Assembly: GCF_033242265.1 (NCBI RefSeq) | Contig: NZ_BTFW01000001.1 | Span: forward strand, 3,369,001 to 3,433,000 | Direction: 5' to 3' | DNA from: Novosphingobium sp. IK01 | GTDB lineage: Bacteria > Pseudomonadota > Alphaproteobacteria > Sphingomonadales > Sphingomonadaceae | DNA length: 64,000 nt | Part shown: positions 25,081-52,955 of the stretch, piece after piece | Layout: every line of letters begins with the position of its first letter | How positions within the stretch are numbered: the stretch's first letter is position 1 | Notes under the pieces: model-generated | What the model was told of the DNA's origin: nothing | What the model saw: only the letters and a program-made list of their open reading frames with translations | Databases searched by the model: none | Position numbers and translations under genes: made by a program

Positions 25081-25084
25081 CCTA

Positions 25085-26415
25085 GGCCGTGAACCCATAA
25101 ATCTGTGATGCTAGATTACCAGCGGCCACCGTGTGGACAGGCACGCCCTTCGAGCGCAAAGTGCAGGCATGAAGAAGCTGGCCGCCATCTATGAACGCAA
25201 GGGGCAACTGTTTGTGACGGCGTCGCACAAGACGGCGGCGGGTTTTTGGATCGACGATGAGCAAGTGGCTTGCCTCAGCCAGCCTTCGCATGATGAGTTG
25301 GGTCGCGCCATCGAACAGGCTTTGGCTCGATCGCAGGAAGGCGTCCCGACGCCGCCGCCCGATGCACGCATCGACAAGCCATTGCTGGCGGCCGCCGGCG
25401 TTCGTTCGTGGACCACGTTCATGAAATTGTCCAAGCATGTCAGTGTCGTGAGCGACGGGAGTTTGCTCAAAGTCACCCCCTATCGCAATTTGGGTAGCAA
25501 AGAGGGCTTTGAGCCGGAGCCGGATATAGCGGTTCCATCTGCTAATTCGGCCTCGGCTTTGGGGCAGATCGTTGCAGACCTGCTCAGCCGAGCGGCATAG
25601 CGGCATTGGCTCGAACTTTCTTCTTCCGTCAAAATCTGATTCAGGCTTGGCATGAGCCGATATGACTTGACCGACTTCGAGTGGCGCGTGATCGAACCGC
25701 TGTTACCGAATAAGCCCCGAGGTGTGCCGCGCGTCGATGACCGCCGCGTGCTGAACGGCATCTTCTGGGTGTTGCGGTCCGGCGCGCCTTGGCGCGATCT
25801 GCCCGAGCGCTATGGCCCGCGCACCACCTGCTACAACCGCTTTGTAAGATGGCGGAAAGCAGGAGTGTGGGATCGGATGATGGACGCCATTACCGCCGCC
25901 CACGACGGCGACATTCAGATGATCGACAGCACATCTATCCGGGCGCACCAGCAGGCTGCGACGGCAAAAAGGGGGATCGAGATCATTGTCTCGGTCGCTC
26001 CAGGGGTGGACTCACAACCAAAATCCACGCGGTCGTCGACGGGCAAGGCCTCCCGATCCGGCTGAGCCTGACCGCAGGACAAAGCCATGACGGCCAAGCT
26101 GCCGACCATCTGCTCAAACATGTCGGTGCCGGAACAATCGTGCTGGCGGACAAGGCCTACGATGCTGATCGCATCCGGGCGTCACTGCGTGAGAAGGGAG
26201 CGTTTGCCAACATTCCGCCCAAGGCCAATCGGAGGTCGAAACCGTACTTCAGCACGTGGCTGTACCGCGAGCGGAACCTGATTGAGCGCTTCTTCTCCAA
26301 GCTGAAGCACTTCCGCCGTGTCGCAACGCGCTATGACAAGTTGGCAGAAAACTTCCTCGCCATGGTCCAACTGGCCTCAATGCGGCTGTGGCTCCGTGTT
26401 TATGAGTCTACGGCC
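25085..26415 (+). mobile_element. IS5-family insertion sequence with passenger gene, copy 1
   Basis: 1331 bp. Imperfect terminal inverted repeats: the left end begins GGCCGTGAACCCATAAAT and the right end, read inward, begins GGCCGTAGACTCATAAAC. It is flanked by a TA duplication (25083-25084 and 26416-26417) within CTAG, as in IS427-type members of the IS5 family. It carries two genes on one strand: an unusual passenger gene, then a transposase read through a -1 frameshift. An inverted copy of the same length lies at 50347-51677. Confidence 0.9.
25169..25600 (+). CDS. IS passenger gene, CdiI-like immunity protein family (tentative)
   Basis: A 143-aa protein (155 aa if a GTG at 25133 is used) encoded inside the IS, upstream of and parallel to the transposase gene, which starts 51 nt after its stop. 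Recognisable segments are YERKGQLFVTASHKTAAGFW, LLAAAGVRSWTTFMKLSKHV and VTPYRNLGSKEGFEPEP. This layout resembles immunity proteins of contact-dependent growth inhibition (CdiI-type); the assignment comes from memory of family patterns. There is no signal peptide or membrane segment. The second IS copy encodes the same protein with one change (Arg to His after PPPDA, from the G at 25368). No cdiA toxin gene is nearby. Confidence 0.6.
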   Translation: MKKLAAIYERKGQLFVTASHKTAAGFWIDDEQVACLSQPSHDELGRAIEQALARSQEGVPTPPPDARIDKPLLAAAGVRSWTTFMKLSKHVSVVSDGSLLKVTPYRNLGSKEGFEPEPDIAVPSANSASALGQIVADLLSRAA

Positions 26416-26418
26416 TAG
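25652..26418 (+). CDS. IS5-family (IS427-type) transposase, made by -1 frameshift
   Basis: The first frame (25652-26065) holds the N-terminal DUF4096 part (LTDFEWRVIEPLLP) and the first catalytic Asp (MIDSTSI). The second frame continues with GRSRGGLTTKIHAVVDGQGL, LADKAYD (second Asp) and LIERFFSKLKHFRRVATRYD (Glu). The two join at the run A5G5 (25966-25975), where a -1 slip at GCA-AAA-AAG gives the canonical TAKKGDRDH reading. The stop codon TAG is formed from the target TA plus the next base just outside the element. Confidence 0.9.
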
Positions 26419-50245: not shown

Positions 50246-50346
50246 TTAGCTTCCTGCTGGCGCTAGCAATTCCTCTGGATCGATCGGTTTTGGCAGGTCT
50301 AAATCCTCAAAAAGGTCGACCTTATTCTGAGTTTCCAGCCATATTA
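50246..50346 (-). pseudogene. Detached 3' end of the split ATPase gene
   Basis: On the minus strand just outside the IS a frame reads IWLETQNKVDLFEDLDL, continues for 15 more codons and ends in TAA (50246-50248). Joining it to the ATPase gene at 51.68 kb across the removed IS and one TA copy gives an unbroken frame (KGFL then IWLE). It is thus the last 32 codons of that gene. The region from 50012 to 50245 is AT-rich and shows no gene. Confidence 0.8.
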
Positions 50347-51110
50347 GGCCGTAGACTCATAAACACGGAGCCACAGCCGCATTGAGGCCAGTTGGACCAT
50401 GGCGAGGAAGTTTTCTGCCAACTTGTCATAGCGCGTTGCGACACGGCGGAAGTGCTTCAGCTTGGAGAAGAAGCGCTCAATCAGGTTCCGCTCGCGGTAC
50501 AGCCACGTGCTGAAGTACGGTTTCGACCTCCGATTGGCCTTGGGCGGAATGTTGGCAAACGCTCCCTTCTCACGCAGTGACGCCCGGATGCGATCAGCAT
50601 CGTAGGCCTTGTCCGCCAGCACGATTGTTCCGGCACCGACATGTTTGAGCAGATGGTCGGCAGCTTGGCCGTCATGGCTTTGTCCTGCGGTCAGGCTCAG
50701 CCGGATCGGGAGGCCTTGCCCGTCGACGACCGCGTGGATTTTGGTTGTGAGTCCACCCCTGGAGCGACCGAGACAATGATCTCGATCCCCCTTTTTGCCG
50801 TCGCAGCCTGCTGGTGCGCCCGGATAGATGTGCTGTCGATCATCTGAATGTCGCCGTCGTGGGCGGCGGTAATGGCGTCCATCATCCGATCCCACACTCC
50901 TGCTTTCCGCCATCTTACAAAGCGGTTGTAGCAGGTGGTGCGCGGGCCATAGCGCTCGGGCAGATCGCGCCAAGGCGCGCCGGACCGCAACACCCAGAAG
51001 ATGCCGTTCAGCACGCGGCGGTCATCGACGCGCGGCACACCTCGGGGCTTATTCGGTAACAGCGGTTCGATCACGCGCCACTCGAAGTCGGTCAAGTCAT
51101 ATCGGCTCAT
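50344..51110 (-). CDS. IS5-family transposase, -1 frameshift, copy 2
   Basis: Same two-frame gene as in copy 1, with the A5G5 slippage run on the minus strand at 50796-50787. Protein frames are identical to copy 1. Here the stop is TAA instead of TAG, because the last codon is completed by the target site outside the element (50344-50346). Confidence 0.9.
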
Positions 51111-51677
51111 GCCAAGCCTGAATCAGATTTTGACGGAAGAAGAAAGTTCGAGCCAATGCCGCTATGCCGCTCGGCTGAGCAGGTCTGCAACGATCTGCCC
51201 CAAAGCCGAGGCCGAATTAGCAGATGGAACCGCTATATCCGGCTCCGGCTCAAAGCCCTCTTTGCTACCCAAATTGCGATAGGGGGTGACTTTGAGCAAA
51301 CTCCCGTCGCTCACGACACTGACATGCTTGGACAATTTCATGAACGTGGTCCACGAACGAACGCCGGCGGCCGCCAGCAATGGCTTGTCGATGTGTGCAT
51401 CGGGCGGCGGCGTCGGGACGCCTTCCTGCGATCGAGCCAAAGCCTGTTCGATGGCGCGACCCAACTCATCATGCGAAGGCTGGCTGAGGCAAGCCACTTG
51501 CTCATCGTCGATCCAAAAACCCGCCGCCGTCTTGTGCGACGCCGTCACAAACAGTTGCCCCTTGCGTTCATAGATGGCGGCCAGCTTCTTCATGCCTGCA
51601 CTTTGCGCTCGAAGGGCGTGCCTGTCCACACGGTGGCCGCTGGTAATCTAGCATCACAGATTTATGGGTTCACGGCC
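50347..51677 (-). mobile_element. IS5-family insertion sequence with passenger gene, copy 2 (inverted)
   Basis: 1331 bp, the same element as at 25085-26415 but in the opposite orientation. Flanking TA duplication at 50345-50346 and 51678-51679, within TTAG and CTAG. The transposase frames read identically; the passenger gene differs by one residue. It is inserted near the 3' end of a low-GC ATPase gene. Confidence 0.92.
51162..51593 (-). CDS. IS passenger gene, CdiI-like immunity protein family (tentative), copy 2
   Basis: 143 aa, identical to the copy-1 passenger except His in place of Arg after PPPDA. Its intact frame in both copies argues that the gene is kept functional or that both copies are recent. 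Domain remarks are as for copy 1. Confidence 0.6.
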   Translation of the reverse strand: MKKLAAIYERKGQLFVTASHKTAAGFWIDDEQVACLSQPSHDELGRAIEQALARSQEGVPTPPPDAHIDKPLLAAAGVRSWTTFMKLSKHVSVVSDGSLLKVTPYRNLGSKEGFEPEPDIAVPSANSASALGQIVADLLSRAA

Positions 51678-52955
51678 TAGAAAGCCCTTATCCACAACGT
51701 GAAGGCGCGTGTTGGTCGTATCGTAATCTATAACCAGTGGTCGTATATTTTTTTTATTCTGAAGTGATGCCGCGGAAATTAGTATCTGCGTTATATTTCC
51801 GTTGTTTAGCTTGTCTCCGCGCGGATGTTGTGATTTTATTATTCTTGTTATTGTCCTTAATCGAACGCCCTTTTCAAGCTCTTCTACAGGAAAGCAGAGG
51901 AGCGCGTAAATTATCCATTTTGGCATTTCAAGATCAGTTTCCTGAAAGCCATCGACAAATCCAAAGAGAAAACCTTTGTATCGACCTGTTTGTTGGGAGA
52001 CTATTTCTGCAGAAAGGCTTGGTACGTCGATTCCTTCGCCTACTACCTTGTATACGTCTTGAGTTTCGTAAATCCCAATGCCTCTTGCAGCGCGGCGGCA
52101 GAGTTCTTGAACGATATGTACGCTTTCAAAAGCTCGCCCGAGAACGGCCTGCACAAATTCCTCAGAAAAAGAAATATTCAGGAGCATTCCGCCGTCTGTG
52201 ATCACTTCGCGAAGGCTGGCTTCGCCCCAAGTGTCGACGTCAACGGAAATTACGCGGTCTGTTAGGTCGCCGTTGAATCCAATAAGTCTATTTTCCTCTC
52301 GCCAGACTGCGACTACTATAAACGTAAATTTTGAAGATTCATGAAATGCTTTTAAAGAAAAGCTAAAATCTCTTTGGGTGTCGTCTGGGAGATAATGGAA
52401 ATCTTCTAGGACAATAAATTTACTGAAATTTATAGCCTCAAGTGCTCTTATGATGTCGTTAGTTGAGTCTGGGTCAAGCTCAAGCTCGTGAAATGTTACT
52501 GATTCGGAATCTGTTGCGGTGTCTTCATTTCCCGCTTTAGCTGTGGCCTTTCCGAAAAGAGGGATAGAAAATCCGGCGCTACCTTCAACAGCAATTTTAT
52601 TTGAACCCGATACAGTTTTGGTAGTAGACTGCTTGACAGAAAACCCAGCTGATTTCAAAATTGCAGCATGCAAATCTGCTAAAGTCCACTTGTTTTGGCA
52701 AGATATGACAACATAATCATTGTCACTTAGGCATTTTTTTCTAAGAGAGGTTTTGCCTTGTTTGGAGCTGCCGTAAATGACGATATGCTTTCCTTGAGAT
52801 AAGCTGTCTATAAAAACCTCATCGACATTTTTTCTGGAAACGTAGTTAAGTGGTAATTCCCGGGATATACCAAATACGTCGTCGGTCGTGTGAGTTGTCT
52901 TCACCATATCTTTACCAACCTCTTGGGATTGCAATTCATTGGATTGATAGCGCAT
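51654..52955 (-). CDS. P-loop ATPase (AAA/STAND-like), 3' end replaced by IS sequence
   Basis: 433 codons as it stands: 426 native residues, then seven (GREPINL) read from the IS end. Before insertion it would have been 458 aa. Walker A is IVIYGSSKQGKTSLRKKC (residues 58-75) and Walker B is FIVLEDFHYLPDD (180-192). Then come an arginine-containing VVAVWREENRLIG and a helical C-terminal part (GRAFESVHIVQELCRRAARG) like AAA ATPases related to ORC/STAND proteins. Codon use is AT-rich, unlike the flanks, implying transfer. AGAGGG lies upstream of the ATG. The function is unknown; a signalling or defence role is inference. Confidence 0.75.
   Translation of the reverse strand: MRYQSNELQSQEVGKDMVKTTHTTDDVFGISRELPLNYVSRKNVDEVFIDSLSQGKHIVIYGSSKQGKTSLRKKCLSDNDYVVISCQNKWTLADLHAAILKSAGFSVKQSTTKTVSGSNKIAVEGSAGFSIPLFGKATAKAGNEDTATDSESVTFHELELDPDSTNDIIRALEAINFSKFIVLEDFHYLPDDTQRDFSFSLKAFHESSKFTFIVVAVWREENRLIGFNGDLTDRVISVDVDTWGEASLREVITDGGMLLNISFSEEFVQAVLGRAFESVHIVQELCRRAARGIGIYETQDVYKVVGEGIDVPSLSAEIVSQQTGRYKGFLFGFVDGFQETDLEMPKWIIYALLCFPVEELEKGVRLRTITRIIKSQHPRGDKLNNGNITQILISAASLQNKKNIRPLVIDYDTTNTRLHVVDKGFLGREPINL

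Follow-up and report, generated by a model that had tools for sequence, protein, structure and literature searches.

Integron gene cassettes are single small genes that are exchanged at one position by an integrase. Insertion sequences (IS) may also carry passenger genes; according to PMC7986276, such elements (tIS) have members in several IS families, and ISDsp3 (IS6 family) has a single hypothetical gene as its passenger. Passenger genes of the Tn3 family are treated in PMC7371123. The bcpAIOB element of Burkholderia thailandensis is, according to PMC6350997, a mobile contact-dependent inhibition (CDI) element of roughly 210 kb that is flanked by IS.

The element described here lies in a stretch of 64,000 nucleotides from Novosphingobium sp. 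IK01 (the window). Like a tIS, it has a single transposase, IS ends and an extra gene that is dispensable for transposition. Unlike a tIS, it belongs to a clade whose slot is fixed and hypervariable, 82 elements sharing about 60 cargo families between them; the histories of cargo and transposase are discordant, and several toxin-immunity families are present. It resembles the bcpAIOB element in that CDI genes are moved by insertion sequences; bcpAIOB, however, comprises a whole toxin-immunity locus within a composite element of very large size (PMC6350997), whereas here a lone immunity gene sits in one small IS. In contrast to CdiI proteins (PF07262), the gene stands alone in a 1.3-kb IS that contains no toxin gene, and its product is only 15-21% identical to the solved chains. 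As with integron cassettes, single small genes are swapped at one position, and one cargo family is the Pfam family Hfx_Cass5, an integron cassette protein. Integrons, however, are recognized by an integrase and attC sites, whereas this element has IS ends, its only genes are those for the passenger and for a DDE transposase, it usually holds one gene at a time and there is no common cargo-edge sequence beyond the IS ends. Among the papers listed by searches of open PMC full text, none reports variable or immunity cargo in an IS427-type element.

Structure of the element

The window contains two copies of the element, with the following features.

25085..26415, + strand: IS5/IS427-type element, copy 1, bearing the passenger; 1331 bp, delimited by inverted repeats and TA flanks
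25083-25084 and 26416-26417: TA dinucleotides on both sides of copy 1
25085..25101, + strand: left inverted repeat, the left edge of the cargo slot
25169..25600, + strand: passenger gene, 143 aa, CdiI-family immunity fold
25616..25644, + strand: right edge of the cargo slot, conserved in the logo of 77 filled elements (CTTTC, 25616-25620; TGATTCAG, 25637-25644)
25652..26065, + strand: first frame of the transposase, DUF4096; N-terminal part of NF033580
25789..26418, + strand: second frame of the transposase, DDE domain
26399..26415, - strand: right inverted repeat
50347..51677, - strand: copy 2 of the IS, 1331 bp
51162..51593, - strand: passenger of copy 2, one residue different (R/H)
50344..51110, - strand: two-frame transposase of copy 2 (frames 50697-51110 and 50344-50973)

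The gene order is left repeat, 143-aa gene, two overlapping transposase frames and right repeat. The two ends of the element, GGCCGTGAACCCATAAA and GGCCGTAGACTCATAAA, agree in 14 of their 17 positions; TA is found on each side, and the outer base varies among copies. The two transposase frames scored 141.6 and 174.8 bits with NF033580 (transpos_IS5_3; cut-off 110), which identifies an IS5-family DDE transposase, and plasmid relatives that are 86% identical are annotated as 'IS5-like element IS427 family transposase'. These observations bear out the original prediction of two 1331-bp copies with the same gene order, a frameshifted IS427-type transposase, and a passenger that lies inside the inverted repeats and is intact in both copies. 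The interval first marked, 25085-25600, takes in the left end and the passenger but leaves out the rest of the element. A run of A5G5 at 25966-25975 is the likely site of the transposase frameshift.

At 26413-26418, the insertion site provides the stop codon of the transposase, which consists of the target TA and the following base: TAG in this copy, TAA in others. A 433-aa ORF at 51654-52955, which looks ATPase-like by eye, ends within the left end of copy 2, and its 3' end may thus have been altered by the insertion.

The passenger has a CdiI immunity fold

The 143-aa passenger has the CdiI (PF07262) fold, with PDB 4zqv, 4g6u, 4zqw and 4zqu as solved relatives. Used as a single sequence, it gave no match in Pfam, NCBIfam or PADLOC, and none to the PF07262 profile at E ≤ 1; 20 of the 45 members of the passenger alignment, however, matched that profile at E ≤ 1 (best 9.7e-6). 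PF07262 is also precomputed for protein P0001, which is 99% identical to the passenger. A profile search returned NMB0488 at 0.032 and a Yersinia CdiI at 0.77. The suggestion made from the letters alone, that the protein reads like a CDI immunity protein, is thus supported by the fold and by the matches of the alignment members. Searching the PDB with the passenger by phmmer returned four matches (best 0.0045), all of them to unrelated proteins.

Only 5 of 197 related genomes had a match, strong in G000 and G007 and distant in the other three; the plasmid collection gave one distant match (30.7%), and a scan of viral contigs gave no relative. The element contains no toxin gene, and no cognate toxin was found, the ORFs listed being those around the two copies in the window. 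A T6SS sheath had no match in this genome, with a positive control in E. coli, and an exporter of the ShlB type did have a match, in a stretch part of which reads N (the control matched in 0 of 14).

A gene in the slot is the rule among close relatives

Relatives of the element were drawn from plasmids (13 of 485 records), from named genomes, of whose 577 confirmed stretches the best 80 were taken, and from other genomes, and were collapsed at 97% identity over 95% of the length to 144 elements, later 161. Elements with 150-800 bp between the left end and the start of the transposase were scored as filled, those with 60-62 bp as empty. When ORFA was at least 90% identical (n = 94), 73 elements were filled and 10 empty, 4 had more than 800 bp and in 7 the left end was not found; the corresponding figures were 7, 1, 2 and 4 at 85-90% identity (n = 14), 0, 8, 1 and 2 at 80-85% (n = 11), and 2, 33, 1 and 6 below 80% (n = 42). 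In shuffled sequence, the 20-bp left end, with up to 2 mismatches allowed, occurred 0 times in 760,625 bases. Among transposases at least 90% identical, therefore, a gene between the left repeat and the transposase is the rule, and it is usually a different gene. As to how often copies of the whole element carry the passenger, a point that the original prediction had left to a survey, carriage of cargo was indeed common but mostly involved genes other than the CdiI-like one.

The slot has fixed, sharp edges. In the 77 filled elements, the left end was strongly conserved as far as CATAAA, whereas the base that follows carried 0.09 bit; conservation returned at CTT (1.4-1.9 bits; -36 to -34 relative to the transposase) and at TGATTCAG (-15 to -8). 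Among the close relatives that are empty, the right-edge stretch usually reads GGGATTCCC, the right half of which aligns with CTTCC or CTTTC of the filled elements. These conserved blocks may act as a promoter or bind the transposase. No sequence resembling a recombination site was shared by the cargo edges of the 77 filled elements beyond the IS ends.

A first transposase tree, with 136 of the 144 elements, had long branches. The second comprised 87 of the 161 elements, namely those with both ends and at least 85% identity, after removal of 12 long-branch or partial rows. On this tree the filled or empty state changed 3 times, against a mean of 6.8 for shuffled labels, none of which (0 of 500) was as low. 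The slot is thus seldom gained or lost, even though the identity of the cargo changes often.

Five elements (L072, L077, L088, L238 and L253) may have a long slot, in which the left end precedes the transposase by 1.3-2.4 kb; possibly they hold multi-gene cargo, or a solo left end is used by chance. One element of the clade, L056, carries RraB-type cargo in a contig binned as Verrucomicrobiaceae, a placement for which wide transfer and mis-binning are both possible.

Cargo and transposase have different histories

The histories of cargo and transposase disagree, and exchange occurs. We compared the nearest transposases in 60 of 72 filled elements and then in 67 of 82. The nearest transposase came with the same cargo family in 7 of the 60 and, in the larger set, in 6 of the 67 (median nearest identity, 89.7%), and this rarity indicates that cargo and transposase have been exchanged. 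The two CdiI carriers, L012 (this genome) and L022 (G007), are 89.3% identical in the slot and 86.4% in the transposase; in the first tree the transposase of L022 grouped, with support of 99/97, with that of L008, which holds other cargo. L008 and L111 share cargo that is 87.4% identical and have transposases that are 81.5% identical, to which those of 38 and 49 other elements, respectively, are closer. The pairs L037/L194 and L241/L242, which have the same cargo and mutually nearest transposases, are cases of simple co-inheritance.

Among the 60 elements, the closest transposases with different cargo were 92.6% identical, and no recent swap of cargo was caught. Identity profiles of element pairs had no clean breakpoint. 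Between L008 and L111, identity was 82-98% up to about +420 of the transposase and 62-73% beyond it, possibly a breakpoint, though the same stretch varies in other pairs too.

The cargo is diverse and includes immunity genes

Seventy-two of the 144 elements had a slot of 150-800 bp and an ORFA at least 74% identical. Their cargo fell into 57 families (blastp, 1e-4), 45 of which were singletons. With 82 filled elements the number was about 60 (Chao1, 126), in a grouping that used all slot ORFs of at least 50 aa together with DNA and in which a few merges may reflect shadow ORFs. The set of slot ORFs comprised 114 of the 115 listed, the antisense ORF of the window passenger being omitted. For 13 of 13 computable pairs of same-family cargo (14 tried), dN/dS was 0.04-0.34; the pairs were hand-picked and not all independent, one was saturated and dS exceeded 1 in several. 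Values in this range indicate that the cargo consists of genuine genes, which selection maintains. Cargo can also decay, as indicated by degraded or internally deleted cargo in the otherwise recognizable elements L058 (compared with L051) and L204 (compared with L069).

Immunity is the commonest recognized function of the cargo, but for about 47 of the about 60 families Pfam gave no strong match (E below 1e-8). Of the 12 families with such a match, five are immunity or inhibitor families: Imm53 (1.3e-30), Imm8 (1.1e-29), SUKH-1 (2e-10), barstar (1.1e-9) and T6SS_Tdi1_C, the last in two elements. CdiI, assigned by fold and also present in two elements, is the sixth, and the six together occur in only 8 of the 82 filled elements. 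The other strong matches were to DUF6968 (five elements), DUF1993, DUF7919, DUF6980, RraB, GNAT and Hfx_Cass5. Seven of the 10 filled elements added later were scanned against Pfam. In public annotation, two plasmid cargos appear as 'SMI1/KNR4 family protein' and 'T6SS immunity protein Tdi1 domain-containing protein'. None of the 114 slot ORFs matched PADLOC, and six of the 72 best slot ORFs resemble small membrane proteins.

We consider it likely that the element represents an IS5/IS427-type IS, of a mainly sphingomonad clade, with an exchangeable one-gene slot that often holds toxin-immunity genes. The passenger would bind and neutralize the toxin domain of a CdiA-type protein delivered by neighboring cells; the host would thereby be protected, and the element retained and amplified. 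Other elements would act likewise with Imm8, Imm53, SUKH-1, Tdi1 or barstar. New cargo may be gained through insertion of elements into or next to each other, with use of a distant left end, and may later be shuffled by recombination between shared ends and transposases; nesting as at L008 could make new pairings of end and cargo.

A broader proposal, which we advance tentatively and hold to be somewhat on the doubtful side, is a transposase-based cassette system, in which an IS clade with a precise slot takes up single genes for immunity to polymorphic toxins, passes them between bacteria and swaps them, much as integrons do for resistance genes. The element is in any case an IS with a passenger, and there is a real chance that it is a distinct cassette-exchange system. 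For immunity genes that lack a neighboring toxin, an autonomous carrier of 1.3 kb whose cargo can be interchanged would be one way of traveling between bacteria; such cargo would also give a benefit-based reason for the persistence of the IS. The cargo families for which Pfam gave no strong match, roughly 47 in number, are predicted to be enriched in toxin-neutralizing proteins and, if the cassette proposal holds, would form a catalogue of new immunity or inhibitor families. Candidates could be found simply by reading the gene that lies between the left end of this IS and its transposase.

Alternatively, the slot could be a general carrier that accepts any tolerated small gene, immunity genes being merely common among small accessory genes. 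We regard this as rather unlikely. Most cargo is without a recognized family, GNAT, RraB, DUF1993 and the integron-cassette family also occur, and cargo is found on either strand (of 72, 36 on the minus strand, 31 on the plus strand and 5 scored as unclear or none, according to a heuristic, with nine assignments made manually), all of which would fit a general carrier. However, the immunity and inhibitor share of the strongly matching cargo families, five of 12 with CdiI added by fold, contrasts with 0 of 25 listed control families. The control consisted of 114 of 124 flanking candidates, small ORFs that, unlike the cargo ORFs, had been filtered for coding bias; it matched 73 Pfam families, with no immunity family among the 25 listed. 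The purifying selection on the cargo also argues that it is useful.

Copies and mobility in this genome

The genome has four copies of the element; over about 1336 bp they are 100% identical, to the precision reported. At the protein level, with the passenger of copy 1 as query, the other three copies are 99% identical, and all four are intact. Passenger-bearing copies are also present at three sites in G236 and at four in G985, with different flanks. The passenger thus lies within IS ends and travels with the IS, as in a tIS, and its near-identical presence at four sites here indicates that the whole unit has transposed, probably recently.

Recruitment of the CdiI-like protein as a regulator or helper of transposition, instead of for immunity, would agree with its location beside the transposase and with its intactness in all four copies. 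Yet close relatives with an unrelated gene or none in the slot are still multi-copy, with identical or nearly identical copies at different sites (G236, G985), and because the slots of relatives hold unrelated proteins we set this role aside as very improbable. That the passenger is a one-off capture, an ordinary tIS with no wider system, is scarcely credible: IS with passenger genes are already known (PMC7986276), but the slot is filled in 73 of the 94 close relatives, with shared edges and a wide variety of genes, provided that the left ends in these relatives were called correctly.

A fifth element in this genome, L008, is 86% identical in the transposase part and has the same ends as the IS with the exchangeable slot described here, with an unrelated passenger on the other strand. 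A model of this passenger, made through a relative that is 94% identical (pLDDT 77), matched nothing in the PDB at E ≤ 0.001. Directly before the L008 element (L008:794-850; G000:C1:632793 on) there is a 32-bp leftover of a left end of the type found in the window. The arrangement looks like one element inserted at CTAG of the left end of another.
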